DNA of 20,438 bases from a virus. A model generated the notes under the pieces. It was not told the DNA's origin. It did no database searches and saw only the letters and a program-made list of their open reading frames with translations. Both the position numbers and the translations under genes were made by a program. Within the stretch, counting starts at the first letter, position 1. Each line of letters opens with the position of its first letter. Positions 510 to 13,179 of the stretch are shown here, piece by piece. The DNA lies in IMG/VR virus record IMGVR_UViG_3300012920_000366, positions 1-20,438 of that record; one strand, written 5' to 3'.

Positions 510-701
510 ATGAGTGAGGACACTAACACAGTACAACTACCCAAGAAGCAGAAAGGTGACGAGCGGAGAAGTCTGCATGTCAGGATAACCGAGTGGCATC
601 ACAGCAAGCTGAATATGCTTGCGAGAGAAACGCACTGGAATAAGAATGAGATCGTCGAGAAACTTATTGAGCAGAGCGCAGTGGGGGAACACTCGGAATG
701 A
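510..701 (+). CDS. ribbon-helix-helix DNA-binding protein candidate (likely regulator)
   Basis: The 63-aa protein has the proportions of an Arc/MetJ/CopG-type ribbon-helix-helix monomer. A basic N-terminus (PKKQKGDERR) leads into a beta strand (SLHVRIT, about residues 21-27), a first helix (about 28-42) and a second helix starting at NKNEIVEKLIEQ (about 44-55). Such proteins are obligate dimers that insert the paired strands into the DNA major groove and often bind neighbouring half-sites cooperatively. The start ATG at 510 has an AGGA 7 bases upstream. A copy of the dispersed palindrome lies 53 bases before the start, so autoregulation and control of the other seven copies is a reasonable but untested inference. 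It is the first gene after the terminator at 374-411 and probably opens the early operon. Confidence 0.6.
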   Translation: MSEDTNTVQLPKKQKGDERRSLHVRITEWHHSKLNMLARETHWNKNEIVEKLIEQSAVGEHSE

Positions 702-706
702 ATTAC

Positions 707-772
707 GGAGCGTGGCACTGCCCTCTTGAGGCTTTTCTCATTGGCCTCACCTCCTTTGTGGTGTCACGCTCC
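707..772 (+). ncRNA. structured leader element upstream of the resolvase gene
   Basis: GGAGCGTGGCAC (707-718) can pair with GTGTCACGCTCC (761-772): 12 pairs with one G-T wobble. Inside, TGAGGC (727-732) pairs with GCCTCA (744-749), and a short GGC/GCC hairpin is possible at 714-722 as an alternative. The element fills almost the whole gap between the stop at 701 and the start at 786, whose upstream bases show no Shine-Dalgarno. It could control translation or processing of the downstream message. It lacks the T-loop of a tRNA. Confidence 0.4.
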
Positions 773-785
773 AATTAAAATCTCA

Positions 786-1121
786 ATGAATAGCAGAGAG
801 AAAGGTAAACGTGGAGAGAGGATGTGGCGAGATCAGCTAAAGTCTGCTGGCTACACAAACTCTAGGCGAGGGCAGCAATTCAGCGGCGATGAGTCCGCAC
901 CAGATGTAATCTGTGAAGACCTGCCACATCTCCACTTCGAAGTAAAATATACGCAGAGGCCAAACATAGAAGCGGCACTGATCCAAGCGCACTCCGACTG
1001 CGGCAGCAAGCTGCCAGTGGTGGCGAGCTACAGGACAGGCGGGAAGCTCAAGGAGTGGGTCGTGTCTATGCCAGCCGAAGCGTTCTTTAAAATAATACAG
1101 AACAATGCCAACGAACAATAA
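786..1121 (+). CDS. PD-(D/E)XK nuclease, Holliday-junction-resolvase-like
   Basis: The 111-aa protein has the layout of small phage resolvase-type PD-(D/E)XK nucleases. A basic N-terminal helix carries the motif I glutamate (GKRGERMWRDQL, Glu11). The central catalytic motif pairs Asp40 (SAPD) with Glu52-Val-Lys54 (HFEVK), and a helix with Gln67 (ALIQAH) follows. These residues normally bind the metal ion and cleave one strand of branched DNA. The ATG at 786 is preferred over the longer upstream frame from 726, because the extra 20 residues cover the hairpin at 707-772 and look non-coding. The gene overlaps the ERF gene by 17 bases, which fits a recombination operon. Whether it is a junction resolvase or another endonuclease of the fold cannot be settled here. 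Confidence 0.72.
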   Translation: MNSREKGKRGERMWRDQLKSAGYTNSRRGQQFSGDESAPDVICEDLPHLHFEVKYTQRPNIEAALIQAHSDCGSKLPVVASYRTGGKLKEWVVSMPAEAFFKIIQNNANEQ

Positions 1122-1647
1122 AACCGAAAGCTTGTACGAAGTACTTGCACGGCTTCAGCCGAAACTGGAGAGGGCAGAAAAGTCCTCCAAGAATCCACAC
1201 TACAAAAACAACTACGCTGGACTTGACGAGTTCATCGAGGTTGCCAGACCCGTGCTTAACAAGGAAGGCTGCTTCCTTACTCACACCCTTGACTTTGTGC
1301 CAGAGCGCACAGAGTTAAAGGAGGACGGCACGAAGGTTCACTACCCAAGGCAGGACTTTTGCACTTGCCGTATCATAAGGGGAGAGCAAGAGATCAAGAC
1401 TCAGATGCCCTTGCTAATGGGCGGACGCGAAGACGCGCAAGCCTTTGGCAGTGCGCTGACCTATGCCAGACGCTACACCCTGCAAGCACTCCTGTGCATT
1501 GCAACTGACGAGCCTGATGACGATGGCGTTAAGGCAGTCGGAGAGAAAAAGGTGGCAGCAATGGCTTCAGGAAGAGGCAACGGTAAAACCCCTACTTCAC
1601 ACCGCGCTGCGGTTGAGGCAAGGGCAGACGGTTTCCTAAAGCCATAA
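1105..1647 (+). CDS. erf: ERF-family single-strand annealing protein
   Basis: The 180-aa protein matches the ERF (Essential Recombination Function) family, which anneals complementary single strands during phage recombination and circularisation. The family pattern is clear: KNPHYKNNYAGLDEF at about residues 29-43 (typical 'K...Y..YA.ld.v'), then QAFGSALTYARRYTLQALL at 112-130, then an acidic DEPDDDG stretch at 135-141. The C-terminal 40 residues are basic and low in complexity, as is usual for the family's tail. It overlaps the resolvase-like gene upstream and is followed by a split nuclease and an SSB-like protein, the normal partners of an annealase. The stop codon TAA (1645-1647) lies inside a palindrome at 1640-1657. 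Confidence 0.92.
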   Translation: MPTNNKTESLYEVLARLQPKLERAEKSSKNPHYKNNYAGLDEFIEVARPVLNKEGCFLTHTLDFVPERTELKEDGTKVHYPRQDFCTCRIIRGEQEIKTQMPLLMGGREDAQAFGSALTYARRYTLQALLCIATDEPDDDGVKAVGEKKVAAMASGRGNGKTPTSHRAAVEARADGFLKP

Positions 1648-1657
1648 CATTATGGCT
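1640..1657 (+). repeat. palindrome over the erf stop codon
   Basis: AGCCATAA (1640-1647) and TTATGGCT (1650-1657) are perfect inverted arms separated by CA, and they include the TAA stop codon of the ERF gene. In RNA this would make a hairpin of about 7 pairs with a tetraloop. The right arm shares GGCT (1654-1657) with the long stem 1654-1763, so the two structures exclude each other. It is not followed by a T-run. Confidence 0.5.
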
Positions 1658-1763
1658 GCTCACGGTATGGTGCTACGAGAGATTCGTGGACGAGGTTTCC
1701 GTAGGGGTTTTCATATATCTCCTCTCCTGCGGTGTTACCTGTTAGAAACAAACGTGAGCAGCC
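1654..1763 (+). ncRNA. candidate multi-helix structured RNA between erf and the nuclease
   Basis: An 11-bp perfect closing stem joins GGCTGCTCACG (1654-1664) to CGTGAGCAGCC (1753-1763). Inside, CTACGA (1673-1678) can pair with TCGTGG (1684-1689) around a GAGAT loop. GTTTC (1695-1699) can pair with GAAAC (1745-1749), and nested in it CCGTAGG (1699-1705) can pair with CCTGCGG (1726-1732) with one wobble. The two inner helices compete for one base. The element occupies the whole 125-base gap before the ATG at 1773, which has no visible Shine-Dalgarno. It could be a cis-regulatory leader, a processed RNA or an inserted structured element. Folding was done by eye, and no known class was recognised. 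Confidence 0.45.
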
Positions 1764-1772
1764 TACTTTAAT

Positions 1773-2839: not shown

Positions 2840-3024
2840 ACGAGCGCGAACAAATTAAACAGTGGGAAGCCATAGCCAAGGAGGTGTTGGTGGACAAGGG
2901 CGCAAGCTGTAGCCACATAGAGTCTGTGCTGGTGGGCATCACCAGAAGCAAGGACAACTGGCTAAGGGAGCAGCTTGAGAAGAAAAAAGAGAAAGCTTGG
3001 AAGGCAGCTAATGTCAAAGATTAA
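2836..3024 (+). CDS. 62-aa helical protein, unknown function
   Basis: The product is short, charged and mostly helical, with a lysine-rich amphipathic C-terminus (about residues 45-62) that could bind nucleic acid or form a coiled coil. The ATG at 2836 overlaps the stop of the 28-aa gene as ATGA, with AAGG about 10 bases upstream. The frame is open further upstream, but the added sequence would be antisense-like filler across the microgene, so the short form is preferred. Its 3' end overlaps the start of the nuclease C-terminal fragment by 14 bases. It is the last ORF wholly inside the putative insertion. No family recognised. Confidence 0.55.
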   Translation: MNEREQIKQWEAIAKEVLVDKGASCSHIESVLVGITRSKDNWLREQLEKKKEKAWKAANVKD

Positions 3025-3601
3025 AGGATACCCAAAGGAGATAGTCTGGGCTGCGTCCTACATTCTTTCTGTCGCTGGCAGGAAGAAGCTAATCAGCGAG
3101 CAGCGCGTGTCTATCATGCGGGACGGGGAAGAGATAAGCTTTGGCAGTATGGACGCTTACTGCAAGGGGCATCTGTTCGACCTGAAGACTGGCATGAAGA
3201 GAGACTACAAGCAGCAGATGGCTGCGTATGCGTTGGGAGTAATGCAGAAGTTTGGAGACAAGAAGCTGACCTGCCACCTAGTCTACTCTAGGTTCAAGAA
3301 TGTAGAGACATTTGATATAGAACTTGAGGAGGCGGAACGCATTGTGTACGGGATAGTGGACTCAGTTAAAGACCCTACACGTTCACCTTGGCCTTGCGAT
3401 TACTGCCGCTGGTGCAGCAGGAAGGATAACTGCACAGCCATCAAACACTTTAGCTATACAATCGCCGGACAGGTTGAGGCGATGAAGCAAATAAATCTCG
3501 ACGATCCGTTAGACCCTGCCGTTAGAGAACGGTTACTATCCATCGTGGATGCGGTGGAGGATTGGGCATGTCGGATGCGGGACAAGGTAAAAAAGATATA
3601 G
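3011..3601 (+). CDS. C-terminal fragment of a Cas4/RecB-like Fe-S nuclease (catalytic part)
   Basis: The 196-aa product holds the catalytic half of the nuclease whose start is at 1773. It has SEQRV (Glu30), a metal-binding Asp48 (FGSMDAY), the Asp57-Leu-Lys59 motif (HLFDLKTG), the QxxxY-type motif (YKQQMAAYALGVM, 66-78) and a cysteine cluster CDYCRWCSRKDNC (Cys129, 132, 135, 141) typical of Fe-S nucleases of the Cas4/AddB type. Those enzymes need one more N-terminal cysteine, which here is on the other fragment. The ATG at 3011 has GGAAGG about 6 bases upstream, so it can be translated alone. Only the first eight residues (MSKIKGYP) precede the KEI repeat at 3035-3043. It is probably an exonuclease partner of the ERF annealase; whether it works without the N-terminal part is open. 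Confidence 0.75.
   Translation: MSKIKGYPKEIVWAASYILSVAGRKKLISEQRVSIMRDGEEISFGSMDAYCKGHLFDLKTGMKRDYKQQMAAYALGVMQKFGDKKLTCHLVYSRFKNVETFDIELEEAERIVYGIVDSVKDPTRSPWPCDYCRWCSRKDNCTAIKHFSYTIAGQVEAMKQINLDDPLDPAVRERLLSIVDAVEDWACRMRDKVKKI
3035..3043. repeat. right copy of 9-bp direct repeat bounding the insertion
   Basis: AAGGAGATA, read as Lys9-Glu10-Ile11 of the C-terminal nuclease fragment. It matches 1950-1958. Joining at the repeat gives LVKEIVWAASYI in one frame. Confidence 0.6.
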
Positions 3602-3902: not shown

Positions 3903-3916
3903 TACTGGACAGTACT
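3901..3916. repeat. dispersed palindrome, copy 4
   Basis: AGTACTGGACAGTACT. Its first two bases complete the TAG stop of the gene ending at 3902. Identical, on the other strand, to the copy at 7678-7693. It can also be read as two 10-bp direct repeats of AGTACTGGMC. Confidence 0.9.
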
Positions 3917-3918
3917 GG

Positions 3919-3964
3919 CCCCCTCCTCTCTCTTTTACGCTGCAAGTTATGAGGGGGGAGGGGG
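3919..3964 (+). promoter_or_regulatory. long GC-rich hairpin before the DnaA-like gene
   Basis: CCCCCTCCTCTCTC (3919-3932) pairs with GAGGGGGGAGGGGG (3951-3964) over 14 positions with two G-T wobbles and an 18-base loop. It begins 2 bases after a dispersed palindrome and ends 23 bases before the ATG at 3988. No T-run follows, so it is a poor intrinsic terminator. It could protect a 3' end, act as an attenuator or separate the two genes' translation. Confidence 0.45.
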
Positions 3965-3987
3965 TTAACAAACATATAGGAGATAAC

Positions 3988-5283: not shown

Positions 5284-8200
5284 TTACTTGTTATCTCTCA
5301 AATACCTGAACGCATGATAGTCTTTCGGCCTAACAGCACCAGATTTAATAAGCTCGTTTATCACATTCTTGCTCTCCTCATCGCCAACCCCCTTGAAATG
5401 CTCCTTGAGGTACTGGCCCCTATCCCAACTGTTCTGAATCCTGCCAAAGTCTTCAGGCAACAAGGCTCCCAGCAGTGCAGCTTCTTTATTCTTTGAGGCT
5501 GCTATTGACTTAACGCGCTCGATAATCGACCTGTAAAATTCTTCGCGCTTCAGATTCTCTTCAGGACTTAGCTTCTTACTGGAGCCGACAGCGTACTTCC
5601 TAGCAGCCTCGATAACAGCCTCGTTAACATCGCCGCCCTTTATGTTCTTTGCAGATTTAAGGAGAAGGTCTTTGTTCTCCTTAATGAACTTGTTAACCAA
5701 AGCGTCCCTTCTTCCGGTTCCATATTTACCAGTACGCTCTCGCTCCACTGCGATGTCTATGGTTGTGGGTTCCTTTGGCTCGTCCATCAAGCCAGCCTTA
5801 ACAGCCGTCTCAACGTAACCTCTCTGAAGTTCAAGCACTTCATCAGTAGCCGCAAACTTCTTGTCCCTCATAAACTTAATGAGGGCATCCTGCGCTTCTT
5901 TAGATGTGGAGGTTCCAACCCTTAACGGCTGCTTACTCTTAACAGAGGATTTAATTATATCCTTAATAAGCTCCTCGGCGTTGGCATCAGAATACTTCTT
6001 GCCGAATCCAAGAACATTCGGCTTGCTCATTTCGTTATCAATAAACTGGTCAGCCAGAAGCTTTGCCTTAACAGCGTCACCTTCCTCAATAGCGGCAACA
6101 ATCTCAGATTTATCAGCAGCGATCTGTGTGGGTGAGAAGCTCCCCTTCAGTGTTGGAGTTCTCTCAACATCTTTAGACTTCTTGACTGCGTACAAGCTCT
6201 CCTTCATGAATCTGTCGTTCACGAACCTTCTCAGCTTTTTGTTTGCTGCCTTTATATCCTGTCTCCTGTCTCCGGTAATTTCTCTATATCCGGCAGCAGT
6301 GCTTCCTGCGCCAGCTACAATTCTCAGACCTTCATCTAAGGTTTGCAGAGACGCCCCAGTTTCTATGGCAGAACCTACAGCTTCTTTAGTCTGATTGATT
6401 GCGTCAACTACAGGCACTCCAACCGGATCAAAGCTTCCAGTTTTCTTGTACCTTAGCGCAGTGCCTCCTATGTACTCTCCAAACAAATCCCACTGTCCGC
6501 CAAGTGCTGCGTTGTTTACCGCTCTATTGGCAAGCATCAGCAAGCCCTTTCCAGAATCATCCTTAAACGCTTCCGCTATCTCCTCATAGCTGGCATCCTC
6601 TCTATCCCTCCCGAACAATCTGTTAGTTTGCCCAACAGTCTCACCAGCTAACTGTGTTGCGGCAAGCCATTTAAGAAATGGTTTTGCATTACCGTTCTCA
6701 AGCTCTCCAATAATGTTCTTATGCAGGTGTCGCTGCATTTGTTGGCCCCAGTTTTGAAACTTAAAAACAGTCCTCCATCCATCGTTCTGCATAAACAACG
6801 GAAGCTGGTCGAACCTGTATCCACCTTGCGTTTCCTTAGTCCAGCTTTGCAGAAGCCTTCTTGTTTCTTCGTGGGATTCAGGGTTGAAAGGAACTTCAGT
6901 CCTCTTCCCCATCACATTGGCGAACCTTTCATTCGCAACCTTAGACAAATCTATATTGTTGTTGTTTGCGAATCTTTGAGCGGAGGCTAGGTTCTTTGCC
7001 TTTTGCCCGCCATTTTTCAAAAGCCCGTCTAGCAATTTTTTCTGTGACTGGAGCCTGTTAAATGCTGGCCCTGATTTAGCATTCTTAATGCTATGAATGT
7101 TCCTAACTAAATAGACAATCTGCTCTGCGTTCTCAACCTCATCGTACAAGTCCATCCACTCTCTTCTGGCTAAGTCCCCAGCTATAGTACCCTGCTTTCT
7201 AATAAAATCTTCAGCACCAGAAAATCCTGTCGCCCTTAGAGCCTTGCCGACTACCCCCTGACCTCCGGCTCTTGAGCCTTTCGTTAAAGACTGGCTGTCC
7301 ACCATAGCAGTCACCCTGCCAATGTCGTTCCCTGTTGCTCCCAGTCTTTCGGCTAAATGTTGTGCCTTCTTATTGCCCCTTATTTTTGATCCTATTTCAG
7401 AAAAGGTGTCGGCAAGCTGCATAATTGTAGCCCTAGCCATAGGCTCAGTGCCAGTAATCGTCCAAGTTTTGAATGCTCCTGTAAGGTTCTTAATAGCAGA
7501 TGACGGGTTAGCAATAAAAGCAAAGGTAGCCGCTTGGTTAGCTCCACTAGCAAATGAGCTTCCGCTTGGGCTAAATATCACTTTATGAATGTCATCAACA
7601 TATTTCTTGGTATTTCGATCAGACTTGCCTTGAGATATAACCCTAAAAAGAAAGTCAGGGTTATCAATAGCCCGACCAGTACTGTCCAGTACTTTGTCCT
7701 GACCTCCAAAGTGGCGTATTTGAGCCAAGCTTCTTGCAGAGTCATCAAGGTAAGCAGCACCTAAGTCTGGGCTAAAGTCCAAGGCTTCGGGGGGAAGATC
7801 GGCCAAGGTTCTGCCTCGCTCTAGGTGGCTGAAAAAATTAGAAGAGCCTCCACCTCTTGCTATTTGATCTTTAAATTCAACGTAGTTTTTAAGCTTTTTC
7901 TCTAGCGTTGCTTTATCCTTTGCGCCGAATATACGCAGCAACTCCTTTGCTTCTTTTGAGTCTCTTCTTATGTCGAAAAGCCTGAAGTTATCCTCTATAA
8001 GCTCCTCGTATTCCTGCTTCAGCTTTCTGGGCCAGTAAGCCTCATGCTGTCTGGCCTTCCTCCAAGAGTCACCATCTTTTACGATTATGTTTAGTCCCCG
8101 CATTTTCCGTCCGGCTTGCTGTGAGGCGTCAGACCACCCGTCCACAAGAGCCTTACCCATAGGTGACATCCTTGTGTAATAATCTTTAGACCTAGCAATC

Positions 8201-10131
8201 CTCATGTTCTCTGCTATCTGGCCTTCATGCAGGTAGGCGGGTTGGTTAATTTTAAGCTGAGTAAGACCCTTGGCTTTGTCTTCGTACTGGGTACGCACTG
8301 TCGCGGACTCATCACCCCTTACGCCGCCTGTTTCAGAATGCCTTCTACGCATCCACTCTGAAAACTCTTCATTAGCTAACTCGGTTTCCTTTTTATTTCT
8401 AAACAATCCATATCCAATTCCCTCCGCTTTATTTAGAAATCTTGCTTGATAGTCAGCGGCAAGGAAGTTGCCATCATCAACTGAGTGGCGAAGACCTTTG
8501 GCAAGTTGGAACAATGCGCTCTTCTCTCCTGCGCCACCCTTTTGTGCTGCCCTCTCCAAAATGTCAGCAGTGCCCATATAGAGCCTGTTAACCATAGGGG
8601 TGGGCAATGTGCTGATCTTAGTAACCGCTCGGTCAATAGCTCCGGCAACACGAGACGTGTCGCTATTTCTCATAGCCCACTTGAACACAGGGTCTGTAGC
8701 GTACTTGCTGATAGACGAACCCAGCCATCCTTCACCCATCCTTTCTATGTTCTGGCCTTCTGTCACCAGTTCGGAGCCTTTTAATTTAACGCCGTACTTA
8801 CTGGTCGCCTGACTGCTGGCCTGTCTCCCTAAGTCCACCAAAGTTGCAGCAGCCTCCTCGGCGTCCATTCGAGAAAGAGAGTTCAAGAATTTAATTTCAT
8901 ACTCAAGAAGCTCCTTCTCAGAAATAGCGTGATTGCGGTAGAAGTTTGGAGGTCTGTTCTCCGCCATATTGTCCCGCAAAATCCCAGCAAGATTCCTTCT
9001 TGATTCCCTACCAGCCCCAGACATCCCGTCCGTAACGGACTTGATAAGTTTATCTTCAGCTTTGGCAATAGCCTCATCCGATAAAGAGCTACTGCGGTAA
9101 CTGTTTTCTAGGTTTTGTTTGTTTCGTAAAATAGTAATAACCCTCTGCATCATTTGAGGGTCAGAGTTGTTAATTAAGACTTTGGGGTTTGAGTCAATTA
9201 GGGCTATGTCTTGTCTAAGTCTCTTAGCCAACTCCTTAGCAGCGTTCCTTTTTCCTTTTGTTGATGCGTGTTTACCCATAAACACAGCCTGTTGAACCTT
9301 TTCCCTGAGAGCATCCTTAACCTTGAGGTTGTCATTCGCAATCTGCTTAGGTGTAGCCTTAACCTTAGAGAGAGGCGATAATAGCGCACCAAGACCAAGG
9401 GCTAGTTTGTTCCTATCCCAGACTTCGATAAGATCAGGAGAAAGGGGCTTGCCTTCCTCTAGGATGCTTGCGGTTTGCAGGGTAAGCTCGTTAATCGTGG
9501 CAGCTTCTGTCCCACCAACAATAAATCTCATTACAGTTGGAGCTTGGCCCAAAGTGGTCAAGGCAGACTGTCCCATCAGCCCCATACCCATAGCTTCCGC
9601 AGCCTCTCTGCCAGTGGTAGGCTTACCGGACGCACTGTCAGCCATTATGCGTCCTACTAAAGCCCCACCGCCCAGCACTGCTGCTTTGCCGAGCGGATTT
9701 GGTACAGCTTGAGCGTACGGCCAAACGGCAGCCACCCCTGATCCAGCCCCAACGCCACCCCTTGCTGCTCTTAGCCCCTCTTCTGCGGTTTCCTCAGAAG
9801 CCCCAGTTGCTTTCATGATGGGGTCTATAAGGATTTCACCACTAGCAACATCCTTAACGCCCTTTGCAACACGTTGAAGACCAGTTATGGCAGTATCAAG
9901 TCCGCCAGTCCCCTTTGTTATTGTCTCCCCTGACCTTACCTTTTCTCTTTCTCTCTTCTGCTCTTCAGTAAGGGATGTGGGTGAGCGCAACTCCCTTCTA
10001 AGTTTTGCTAGAGGAGACTCTGGAGAAGGGTAATCAAGTGAAAGCTTTTCCTTATCAACCTCTTCGTCAGAGTCTAAGCCCAGACTTTTCCTAAGCTCCC
10101 TGTTAAGCTCTTCTAAAGTTTTTTCTGGCAT
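5284..10131 (-). CDS. giant internal virion / DNA-ejection protein (T7 gp16-like position)
   Basis: At 1615 aa this is by far the largest gene. It starts with charged helices (residues 1-70), then an Ala/Gly-rich, partly hydrophobic region (about 115-215), followed by long helical segments rich in Lys, Glu and Arg to the end. No lytic transglycosylase motif was seen. Its position, last of a gene series matching T7 11-12-13-14-15-16, and its size (T7 gp16 is about 1300 aa) suggest the large internal core protein that is ejected into the cell and helps DNA entry. A match to 'large polyvalent' phage proteins is also possible. There is no clear ribosome binding site; it lies 14 bases after the preceding gene and is probably coupled to it. 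Copy 6 of the palindrome is inside it. Confidence 0.6.
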   Translation of the reverse strand: MPEKTLEELNRELRKSLGLDSDEEVDKEKLSLDYPSPESPLAKLRRELRSPTSLTEEQKREREKVRSGETITKGTGGLDTAITGLQRVAKGVKDVASGEILIDPIMKATGASEETAEEGLRAARGGVGAGSGVAAVWPYAQAVPNPLGKAAVLGGGALVGRIMADSASGKPTTGREAAEAMGMGLMGQSALTTLGQAPTVMRFIVGGTEAATINELTLQTASILEEGKPLSPDLIEVWDRNKLALGLGALLSPLSKVKATPKQIANDNLKVKDALREKVQQAVFMGKHASTKGKRNAAKELAKRLRQDIALIDSNPKVLINNSDPQMMQRVITILRNKQNLENSYRSSSLSDEAIAKAEDKLIKSVTDGMSGAGRESRRNLAGILRDNMAENRPPNFYRNHAISEKELLEYEIKFLNSLSRMDAEEAAATLVDLGRQASSQATSKYGVKLKGSELVTEGQNIERMGEGWLGSSISKYATDPVFKWAMRNSDTSRVAGAIDRAVTKISTLPTPMVNRLYMGTADILERAAQKGGAGEKSALFQLAKGLRHSVDDGNFLAADYQARFLNKAEGIGYGLFRNKKETELANEEFSEWMRRRHSETGGVRGDESATVRTQYEDKAKGLTQLKINQPAYLHEGQIAENMRIARSKDYYTRMSPMGKALVDGWSDASQQAGRKMRGLNIIVKDGDSWRKARQHEAYWPRKLKQEYEELIEDNFRLFDIRRDSKEAKELLRIFGAKDKATLEKKLKNYVEFKDQIARGGGSSNFFSHLERGRTLADLPPEALDFSPDLGAAYLDDSARSLAQIRHFGGQDKVLDSTGRAIDNPDFLFRVISQGKSDRNTKKYVDDIHKVIFSPSGSSFASGANQAATFAFIANPSSAIKNLTGAFKTWTITGTEPMARATIMQLADTFSEIGSKIRGNKKAQHLAERLGATGNDIGRVTAMVDSQSLTKGSRAGGQGVVGKALRATGFSGAEDFIRKQGTIAGDLARREWMDLYDEVENAEQIVYLVRNIHSIKNAKSGPAFNRLQSQKKLLDGLLKNGGQKAKNLASAQRFANNNNIDLSKVANERFANVMGKRTEVPFNPESHEETRRLLQSWTKETQGGYRFDQLPLFMQNDGWRTVFKFQNWGQQMQRHLHKNIIGELENGNAKPFLKWLAATQLAGETVGQTNRLFGRDREDASYEEIAEAFKDDSGKGLLMLANRAVNNAALGGQWDLFGEYIGGTALRYKKTGSFDPVGVPVVDAINQTKEAVGSAIETGASLQTLDEGLRIVAGAGSTAAGYREITGDRRQDIKAANKKLRRFVNDRFMKESLYAVKKSKDVERTPTLKGSFSPTQIAADKSEIVAAIEEGDAVKAKLLADQFIDNEMSKPNVLGFGKKYSDANAEELIKDIIKSSVKSKQPLRVGTSTSKEAQDALIKFMRDKKFAATDEVLELQRGYVETAVKAGLMDEPKEPTTIDIAVERERTGKYGTGRRDALVNKFIKENKDLLLKSAKNIKGGDVNEAVIEAARKYAVGSSKKLSPEENLKREEFYRSIIERVKSIAASKNKEAALLGALLPEDFGRIQNSWDRGQYLKEHFKGVGDEESKNVINELIKSGAVRPKDYHAFRYLRDNK
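7678..7693. repeat. dispersed palindrome, copy 6
   Basis: AGTACTGTCCAGTACT within the giant gene. On the coding strand it reads AGTACTGGACAGTACT and encodes part of VLDSTGR; this is the same 16-mer as copy 4 (3901-3916). Confidence 0.9.
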
Positions 10132-10145
10132 TTTAAATCAGAGGT

Positions 10146-12002
10146 TTATTGTGGGAGTGGTGGGACATTAGGTGCGGGTTCAGGTTTTTGTTTCGGCGTA
10201 GCCCCAAGACCAAACAATTTTCTGTACAAAGCTGTATCAATTATTTTTTGATCAGCACCCAGCCCTTCTTGGCTTTTATCAATTTCAATCAAATACTTTT
10301 CAGCCGTGCTGGCTGCATCTGGATCGCCTGTTTTTTGTTTTTCCAGTAATGCTGCTAGAACTGTTTTTGATTCTTCTAAGCTGTTAAGTAAATTAGCGTC
10401 TTTAAGAGACTCAAAAACTACGCTGTACTTTTCAGGTTCAGAAATGGTCAAGTCAACTGCTGGCATAGTTGCTGTTATCATTCTCTTATACTGCGCGAAA
10501 TCCCTTCCCATCTGTTTCTGTTGTTCTTCAGTAAGCTCTACTCCAGCGTCAATTTTGGGATACATTACAATCCCGCCTTGCAGGTTTGTAGCGAAACCAA
10601 ACGAGTAAGGGACTTCTTCCTCGTCTTCATCAACAATTTTTTCAGCGGAAATTGAACCATCTTCGTCTGTTACTAAATTCCAGCCAGTGCTTAATGTTAG
10701 CGCGGATGCAAGTCTAGCTTGTTTCTGAGCCTCGTATAAACGCACCATCGCCGCATCATCTTGTGGGTCAGCATCTACGTCCTGCTGCGCTTGAGAGAGG
10801 GCATCGTTCGCCCTTTCAATTATAGCAAACTTTTGTTCGAAAGCGTTTGGCTCCCTTAAAAAAGGTACTTCTTTTTCCAAAATGCTCTTAACAGTGGCTA
10901 AGTCTGTAACCTTTTTAAGCTGATCCCAGTTCACGCTCGCATCATCAGGGGGCATCATATTTTGAATTGAAGTAACAAAACCAGAAATCTTTGCTTGAGA
11001 AGCTTTCATTTCGGAAGCTTGCTTTGCCTGCATACCTCTTTGCTCTTTAAGTTCGTTGTTTTCAGCACTTTCCCTACCCTCACTGAATTGTTCGCGTAGC
11101 GCATCCTCTAGTCTGGGGTTGTCTTCCACAAGCTGATCTAGCTCGGCATAAGCTGTGCTGTCTGGGTTAAGGTAAGAGTTGGCCCCAAGATTGGCGGCGC
11201 GTTTTATTATTGCAGAATTTCTTGCTTCTCTTGCTTGCTGTTTATCTTCGGCTGAAGTTTGAGAAGACCCAGTATTAAAAGCACTCTGAATTAGTCTTTG
11301 ATCGCTCAGGTCGCCTTCGTACTGATCTAAAATAGATTGCAACCCTTCCCTATTGCCTTCCCGACCTAAAGCAGAGGCTTGATCTACATTGGCTTTTAAG
11401 AGGCTTGACTCCTTTTGCTTACCCTCTTTCTTTAAAAAAGCTTGTTTGGAGTAGTAGTATTCCGGCTTGGTCAAGTCTAACGGTTCATCTCCACCAGCGT
11501 TTGTGTAGGCGGCGTAGCTAGTTCTGGTTCTTTCGTCCCTCGCATCCTGCAAGGCTTTAGCTACACTGGTTTTCTTCTCAGCGGCTGCAAGCTCTTCAAG
11601 CTTCATCTCCCTTAAAACATCTTCAGGAGTCCTTTGGGTTGTTGCAGAGAGGCTAGGGTCGTTAAAGATATTGCGCCTCTCCTCTCCAAACTTAGGAAGC
11701 TGACGAGTCCCCTCCGGCATAACATTAGGAATAGGAGTTTCGTCCCCCTTAATCTGGCTGTATGGCTGGTTCAAGCTTGGGGCTAAGGAGGCACGAAGCT
11801 CGGCTTCTTTCTGCCGCCTCTTGTCGCCTTCACGAAGATTGTATATGCGCTCATCATACCTGCGCTGGCTTTCTCGAAGATCGTCTTCTCGCTCTTGCAG
11901 AGCTTTAAGAGCGGCCTTCCGCTCCCTTCTGTCGGTAGCTTTTTCGTATGCGCGTTCAAATCCGCGACCAGCTTCTTCAAAGAATTTTCCCCAAGTTGCC
12001 AT
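10146..12002 (-). CDS. internal virion protein, T7 gp15-like position
   Basis: The 618-aa protein begins MATWGKFFEEAGRGFERAY and continues into a highly charged coiled-coil-like stretch (about residues 18-75, rich in Arg, Glu, Lys). Most of the rest is helical with many Gln, Ala and acidic residues, and the end is proline rich (QKPEPAPNVPPLPQ). No transmembrane span or enzyme motif is visible. It lies between a 380-aa gp14-like gene and the giant gp16-like gene, the slot of T7 gp15, an ejected core protein. That role is inferred from order, length and composition. AAGGA lies about 9 bases before the ATG. Copy 7 of the palindrome lies 20 bases upstream of the start. Confidence 0.55.
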   Translation of the reverse strand: MATWGKFFEEAGRGFERAYEKATDRRERKAALKALQEREDDLRESQRRYDERIYNLREGDKRRQKEAELRASLAPSLNQPYSQIKGDETPIPNVMPEGTRQLPKFGEERRNIFNDPSLSATTQRTPEDVLREMKLEELAAAEKKTSVAKALQDARDERTRTSYAAYTNAGGDEPLDLTKPEYYYSKQAFLKKEGKQKESSLLKANVDQASALGREGNREGLQSILDQYEGDLSDQRLIQSAFNTGSSQTSAEDKQQAREARNSAIIKRAANLGANSYLNPDSTAYAELDQLVEDNPRLEDALREQFSEGRESAENNELKEQRGMQAKQASEMKASQAKISGFVTSIQNMMPPDDASVNWDQLKKVTDLATVKSILEKEVPFLREPNAFEQKFAIIERANDALSQAQQDVDADPQDDAAMVRLYEAQKQARLASALTLSTGWNLVTDEDGSISAEKIVDEDEEEVPYSFGFATNLQGGIVMYPKIDAGVELTEEQQKQMGRDFAQYKRMITATMPAVDLTISEPEKYSVVFESLKDANLLNSLEESKTVLAALLEKQKTGDPDAASTAEKYLIEIDKSQEGLGADQKIIDTALYRKLFGLGATPKQKPEPAPNVPPLPQ

Positions 12003-12022: not shown

Positions 12023-12038
12023 AGTACTGTGCAGTACT
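12023..12038. repeat. dispersed palindrome, copy 7
   Basis: AGTACTGTGCAGTACT, the same 16-mer as copy 5. It occupies the 34-base gap between two virion genes, and its last two bases form part of the TAG stop (12037-12039, read on the minus strand) of the upstream gene. Confidence 0.9.
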
Positions 12039-13179
12039 AAGGCCCAAATAGTTTGCCTCCAAGCTTTTCACCAAATCCAGCATTTCCTGCTAACCCTCCG
12101 GCAATTCCGCCTAATATTGCTCCGGCTCCTCCACCCTGATTATTCATTTGAGTTCCGTAAATGTTAGCTTGAGTGCCGAACACGTTACTCGCAAACCCAG
12201 TGGCGTTCGCCCCAGCGTTAGCATCAAGCCCCATACCGCGCTGCATCTGGGGCATCGTAAATGGTGACGCCCCCTGTTGCAGACCGGACATCGCAGCACC
12301 CTGCGCTGCAATCGGTTGTAACCCTAAGTAGGACTGGATATTGCCAATGTCCTGCTGACGGGCACCAATTTGCTGTTGCGAGCCTACGTTACGAGCTTGA
12401 TTGATCTGCTGCACACGCTGAATCGCATTAGCAAACGATTGCTGCGCCATAGCGTTGGAGCGATCAGCTTCAGTCTGGCCACTTGCCAGTAAGCCCAGAG
12501 CTTCACCACGCCGCCGCTGACCTAGCTGCATACCGCCTTCCAGTTTCGCAATCGCTTCGCGTAATCCAGCACCAGTTCCTAAAGCCTGTCCGCGAGCAGC
12601 AGCAGCCCCTCGTACACCCTGCTCTAATGCGCGTTGTTGCGCCCCTGTGAGCCTTTCACCGGACATTAGCTGGTCTAGTACCTGTTCCTCAAGCTGACGC
12701 CGCATTTCGGCAGTCTGACCTGTGTCAGTACGCAACTCAGGGGCATCACCAACCTCCTCATATTGCGTTCCTGACGCCAGTTCCTCTGCTGTCCCTCGCC
12801 CTTCACGCAGTTGACGGGCAAAGTCTTCCCGCAAGCCAAACCCTTCTGGGTCTAGCTGCTGCATTTGTTCCCGCTGCGCGGCAACAAACTGTGGGCCGAA
12901 CTCAACGAGATTGTCTAGCTGGGCTTGCGTTAGCTGCGGGACAAGATCAATCAGGCCGGACATCTCAGCCTTCGTGAGATCAATATCTCCGAAGCCCCTG
13001 AAGTCCGCAGTACGCATTTCCCCCGTCCGAGGGTCTTCGTACTCGACCATTGTCCCCTGACGCGCTGCTGACTCAATCAGTCGGCGCGTTGGTAGCGTCT
13101 CTATGTCTGCGAAAACCCCTTCGCGATTTGCCTCGCTATAATCAGGAGCCGCTGGTGGTGTTGGTGATTTTTTGCCCAT
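12037..13179 (-). CDS. internal/ejection protein, T7 gp14-like position
   Basis: The 380-aa protein opens with MGKKSPTPPAAPDY, a beginning common in phage virion proteins between tail and core genes. The middle is rich in Gln, Arg, Ala and Glu and looks like long helices (about residues 110-290). The last 80 residues become Gly/Ala/Asn rich, with AGAILGGIAGGLAGNAGFG near the end, a flexible, weakly hydrophobic segment that could insert in a membrane. T7 gp14 and relatives are ejected into the cell envelope early in infection. The assignment rests on gene order and composition. AGGA lies 8 bases before the ATG, and the gene follows the GNAT-like gene by 4 bases. Confidence 0.55.
   Translation of the reverse strand: MGKKSPTPPAAPDYSEANREGVFADIETLPTRRLIESAARQGTMVEYEDPRTGEMRTADFRGFGDIDLTKAEMSGLIDLVPQLTQAQLDNLVEFGPQFVAAQREQMQQLDPEGFGLREDFARQLREGRGTAEELASGTQYEEVGDAPELRTDTGQTAEMRRQLEEQVLDQLMSGERLTGAQQRALEQGVRGAAAARGQALGTGAGLREAIAKLEGGMQLGQRRRGEALGLLASGQTEADRSNAMAQQSFANAIQRVQQINQARNVGSQQQIGARQQDIGNIQSYLGLQPIAAQGAAMSGLQQGASPFTMPQMQRGMGLDANAGANATGFASNVFGTQANIYGTQMNNQGGGAGAILGGIAGGLAGNAGFGEKLGGKLFGP

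Follow-up and report, generated by a model that had tools for sequence, protein, structure and literature searches.

A conserved structured RNA between erf and a Shine-Dalgarno-less gene in an uncultivated phage lineage, with a possible role in translation

The gap between the erf gene and the next gene of an uncultivated phage (IMG/VR record IMGVR_UViG_3300012920_000366; the whole 20,438-nt stretch is hereafter the window) contains a structured RNA, E2, whose fold is conserved on the plus strand in related phages. The fold keeps a constant geometry relative to the flanking stop and start codons, and the Shine-Dalgarno sequence (SD) of the downstream gene is absent exactly when the element adjoins this same gene. 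An independent repeat of the SD pattern was found with another element (E1) at another gene. These features suggest a role of the elements in translation. Coordinates of the features in the window are given in Table 1; L-numbers denote loci of the relatives.

Table 1. Features of the window around the elements E1 and E2.
Feature	Position	Strand	Evidence or remark
RHH-like gene upstream of E1	510-701		
E1, flanked by the RHH gene and an SD-less gene at 786	703..775	+	z -7.4, covariation, model search
erf gene, ERF-family recombination protein	1105..1647	+	Pfam PF04404, E 1e-23
E2, type A, structured RNA, three-way junction	1654..1763	+	MFE -46.2 kcal/mol, z -4.57; L006 fold matches
P1 closing stem, 5' arm GGCTGCTCACG	1654..1664	+	exact pairing with 3' arm
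Junction strand P1 to P2 GTATGGTG, conserved	1665..1672	+	identical in window, L001, L003 and L006
P2 hairpin (1673-1678/1684-1689)	1673..1689	+	compensatory changes vs L006: two double, one single
P3 hairpin (1693-1696/1737-1740 and 1699-1707/1724-1732)	1693..1740	+	long helix also in L006
P3 apical loop, 16 nt	1708-1723	+	16-nt loop also in L006, where the P3 sequence is wholly different
Junction strand P3 to P1 CTGTTAGAAACAAA, conserved	1739..1752	+	L006 differs by one base
P1 closing stem, 3' arm CGTGAGCAGCC	1753..1763	+	exact pairing with 5' arm
AU-rich spacer, 9 nt, without SD, then ATG	1764..1772	+	9 nt in 9/10 loci, 7 in L202
SD-less gene downstream of E2, 80 aa	1773..2015	+	66-83 aa protein conserved in relatives

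Fold and conservation of the erf intergenic RNA

The erf stop ends at position 1647 and the next ATG stands at 1773, leaving a gap of 125 nt (1648-1772). The initial annotation had described a perfect 11-bp stem closing a 110-base segment that has at least three possible inner helices and fills the entire gap. The stem is exact and is the longest perfect stem in the gap (1000 dinucleotide shuffles: mean 5.7, maximum 9, none reaching 11 bp), and the segment takes up most of the gap rather than all of it. The inner helices are P2 and a two-part P3, which together with P1 make a three-way junction. When its folding energy was compared with dinucleotide shuffles, as had been proposed, the 110-nt plus-strand segment lay far below shuffled sequence (0/200 as low), and its reverse complement folded more weakly (-33.2 kcal/mol, z -3.0). 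No Rfam 15 family matched the window at the gathering score, in line with the earlier statement that no riboswitch or ribozyme was recognised. At a relaxed threshold, E2 and eight relatives gave no credible match, the sole weak match to E2 being to an archaeal sRNA model (E 0.31, 17.1 bits vs cut-off 88). No intrinsic terminator (a GC hairpin with a short loop and a T run after it) was called at the E2 site in the window; a TTTTTT is present 3' of the stem in L006.

Using the Erf protein as query in IMG/VR and reading each erf-downstream gap, we found that nearly all close erf relatives carry an element with this architecture at the corresponding position, whereas it was absent from L201 and L211, in which a different gene lies 3' of erf. 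The element is present as a single copy, fixed at one site of the operon, and a BLAST search of the phage collection with the gap DNA as query returned no match. The elements most similar to that of the window (type A) are found in L001-L003, which are near-identical to it, and in L006, whose erf is 53% identical. L006 shares the closing stem and nearly all junction bases, and its element (-49.7 kcal/mol, z -6.24) forms the same three-way junction. Compensatory changes occur in P2, in P3 (replaced entirely in L006) and in closing stems of the equivalent elements elsewhere. The covariation anticipated for the 11-bp stem itself did not appear in type A, where this stem is uninformative because it is invariant in all four sequences; the P2 covariation is weak, with four sequences only. 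The reading of the segment as a structured RNA candidate is supported.

More distant relatives carry three other closing stems (TGGTGAACGGGCGG, TGGAGGGTGGGCAG and TGAGGGATGGGCAG) around cores B (GCAGCGAU...UMCGCCGUGA), C (GCAAAGAUAGCC...GGCUACGCCGUGA; L205 differs at the first base pair) and D, which is C-like. These cores are unrelated to type A and occur within the other closing stems, which covary strongly. All 14 closing pairs are intact in 15/15 elements, with double changes in 6/14 (7/15 if the next inner pair is included), and the covariation score (15 elements, 15 pairs) is 0.413 vs 0.231 in shuffled data (0/500), with few independent events behind it because there are only about three closing-stem haplotypes (plus type A). 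Most B and C relatives fold at z -2.7 to -4.2. Stem types and core types occur in mixed combinations, which suggests exchange. In L013 (2838-3057), cores B and C stand in tandem in one gap, each with a different closing stem. Types C and D could form a loop/junction pseudoknot (CGGC/GCCG), unproven because its four core pairs never vary. Copies beyond the phage lineage were also considered; 30 hits to the B core came from bacterial genomes, but none has more than 6 closing pairs (true elements have 14), and they are therefore attributed to chance.

The conserved molecule is an RNA in the same direction as the genes (mRNA strand), since closing-stem wobbles are G.U on the plus strand and never A.C, and since the covariance model scores far higher on the plus strand. 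Three other candidate signals were rejected. A 39-aa frame that crosses the window element is not conserved in relatives: it is shifted in L001 by a 1-nt insertion relative to the window and L003, and it is missing from L006 and from types B-D. Mimicry of 16S rRNA was suggested by the resemblance of P3 to 16S helix 45 (ACGAGGUUUCCGUAGGGG), yet against the whole 16S the match does no better than shuffles (p 0.2), and the likeness is missing in L006. The 3' end of erf (1585-1595) can form an alternative perfect 11-bp pairing with P3 (1701-1711), which is full in the window and in L003 (one G.U), has a mismatch in L001 and is absent elsewhere.

Stop-to-start geometry, the Shine-Dalgarno contrast and element E1

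At the ten loci that have this gene directly 3', the stem begins 5-6 nt after the erf stop (6 nt in the window), and the distance from its end to the ATG is also nearly constant (Table 1). These distances are kept across unrelated closing stems and across gaps of 87-126 nt. We scored the SD as the duplex energy of the region upstream of the ATG with ACCUCCUUA. For the ATG at 1773, the energy was -1.9 kcal/mol with stem bases included and +3.1 kcal/mol for the spacer alone; the missing SD had been remarked on in the initial annotation and became the most useful lead. Across the loci, this gene scores +1.5 to -1.9 kcal/mol next to the element, against -5.6 to -9.1 where another gene lies between them (L009, L010, L011, L048 and L205) or where there is no element (L201 and L211). 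The two groups are fully separated (p 3e-4; p 0.005 after collapsing lineages, both computed without a tree). The genes inserted directly 3' of the element are SD-less in L009 and L048 and have a strong SD in L010, L011, L197 and L205. Upstream of the helix, duplex energies were mostly 0.6 to -3.2 (L006: -4.5, L205: -5.9). A split ribosome-binding site of the T4 gene 25 type is not supported, because no consistent SD lies 5' of the stem.

E1 has a closing stem at 707-721/758-772 and an internal loop with a conserved CCTCCTT (CCUCCUU), the anti-SD core. It occurs as one copy per genome (e.g., L202:2472-2541 and L013:1885-1958), and among 16 sequences both sides have changed in 9/18 pairs. The gene 3' of E1 is clearly SD-less if E1 is adjacent and mostly SD-bearing otherwise (p 1.6e-4, without a tree). 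In L006, which has no E1, the gene otherwise found behind it starts inside the upstream stop region.

Other observations concern the surrounding genes. The protein encoded directly downstream of E2 (66-83 aa in the relatives) has no Pfam match and, judged by eye, may be the N-terminal piece of a DUF2800-like nuclease (PD-(D/E)XK-type). This nuclease seems to be split into two pieces (1773-2015 and 3011-3601 in the window) in all relatives; the C-terminal piece has a DUF2800 match starting at profile position 103, and several small genes lie between the two. Another long GC-rich hairpin (window 3903-3987; L006:5950-5993) was found 5' of a DnaA-C-like gene, which has an SD. On the minus strand, the large proteins of the late region (5284-10131, 10146-12002 and 12037-13179; 1615, 618 and 380 aa) had no PHROGs match.

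Possible functions of the elements

The constant geometry and the SD contrast, observed for two elements and two genes, favour a positive role in cis, and we tentatively read E2 as an intercistronic RNA that bridges the erf stop and the next start for SD-independent translation. E2 would be part of an early polycistronic mRNA, in which the closing stem would draw the gap together and place the erf stop (6 nt 5' of the stem) beside the next AUG (9 nt 3' of it). SD-independent initiation at the next gene could then come from ribosomes that terminate at erf or from 30S subunits attracted by the fold, and E1 would be a second such bridge in the same operon. The conservation of the inner junctions suggests an additional binding or regulatory function, possibly as a module that modulates initiation. 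Against this reading, bridging by itself needs no conserved junction bases or cores, and some genes directly 3' of the element bear their own SD (L010, L011, L197 and L205).

Known systems resemble a stop-to-start bridge in part. In termination-reinitiation coupling (PMC10666635, PMC12548453), an SD-less downstream start is likewise fed by ribosomes of the upstream gene; however, the known cases depend on an overlap or a very short gap, and at about 20 nt almost no linear coupling is left (PMC10666635), whereas the linear distance here is 87-126 nt. In T4 genes 25 and 38, an mRNA helix brings distant initiation signals together, shortening the SD-AUG spacing from 22 to 5 nt and from 27 to 11 nt (PMC3014915, reviewing Nivinskas 1999 and Malys and Nivinskas 2009). 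There, too, a phage intercistronic helix sets the working distance of initiation signals, but it brings the SD to the AUG, whereas E2, with no SD upstream, would bring the stop codon, and the elements described here are 70-110 nt long with a conserved core.

A role in mRNA processing or stability is an unlikely alternative, in which RNase III or another nuclease would cut the helix and leave protected 3' ends and short-leader SD-less mRNAs. RNase III processes the mRNA between T7 early genes, and the RNase III sites of phage early mRNAs are likewise long hairpins in early intergenic gaps; the long GC-rich helices in two gaps of an early operon and the short AU-rich spacer before the ATG would fit. 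Even so, RNase III makes few sequence demands, whereas the junctions are conserved in sequence, and processing alone leaves the fixed 9-nt spacing and the link to SD loss unaccounted for. The fold might also block post-termination ribosomes and keep the level of the downstream protein low. In a synthetic E. coli operon, structure after the stop codon lowered re-initiation (PMC7518266), which counts against bridging, and such ribosome termination structures are common in bacteria. E2 resembles them as a stable RNA structure directly past an operon stop codon, its stem beginning 5-6 nt downstream. Nevertheless, we consider insulation improbable, because the ordinary class is a statistical folding tendency with a proposed insulating effect, defined by folding energy and not by conserved cores, whereas E2 is a specific conserved RNA that stands at a fixed distance from the next start, where the SD is lost; neither this constant distance nor the strong SD on the separated gene is accounted for by insulation.

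The conserved inner cores, and their exchange within a fixed stem, resemble diversified specificity, and the E1 loop exposes an anti-SD core, as might be expected of a small RNA processed from the mRNA and acting in trans (e.g., an anti-defence or host-shut-off RNA). This is quite unlikely given the single copy at a fixed operon site and the lack of promoter or terminator evidence around the element, and it does not account for the geometry or the SD contrast. An undescribed class of self-cleaving ribozyme or ligand-binding riboswitch is very unlikely: the type-A junction has conserved unpaired bases and types C and D may contain a pseudoknot, but the invariant core pairs leave the latter unproven, Rfam gave no match even at the relaxed threshold, and two unrelated cores at one site speak against a single catalytic or ligand core. 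Least probable of all is a recombination site or hairpin acting at the DNA level, with an incidental RNA fold. Genes have been inserted directly after the element in L009, L010, L048 and L205, as such a site might produce, but G.U wobbles are confined to one strand, and both the fold and the model score differ between strands, which points to RNA.

Returning to the bridge, a broader and more doubtful proposal is that modular structured RNAs serve as stop-to-start bridges across about 100 nt, with exchangeable inner cores that set regulation; such RNAs would permit (re)initiation independent of an SD and be a bacterial counterpart of structured internal initiation or of a ribosome-shunt element. 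Mechanism aside, two RNA families absent from Rfam are new, E1 and E2 (the latter with several core types), and both sit in a defined uncultivated phage lineage. These phages provide a natural experiment in which one gene occurs with and without the element. If the bridge reading is true, ribosomes crossing about 100 nt without an SD would represent a new way to control operons and supply a usable genetic part.
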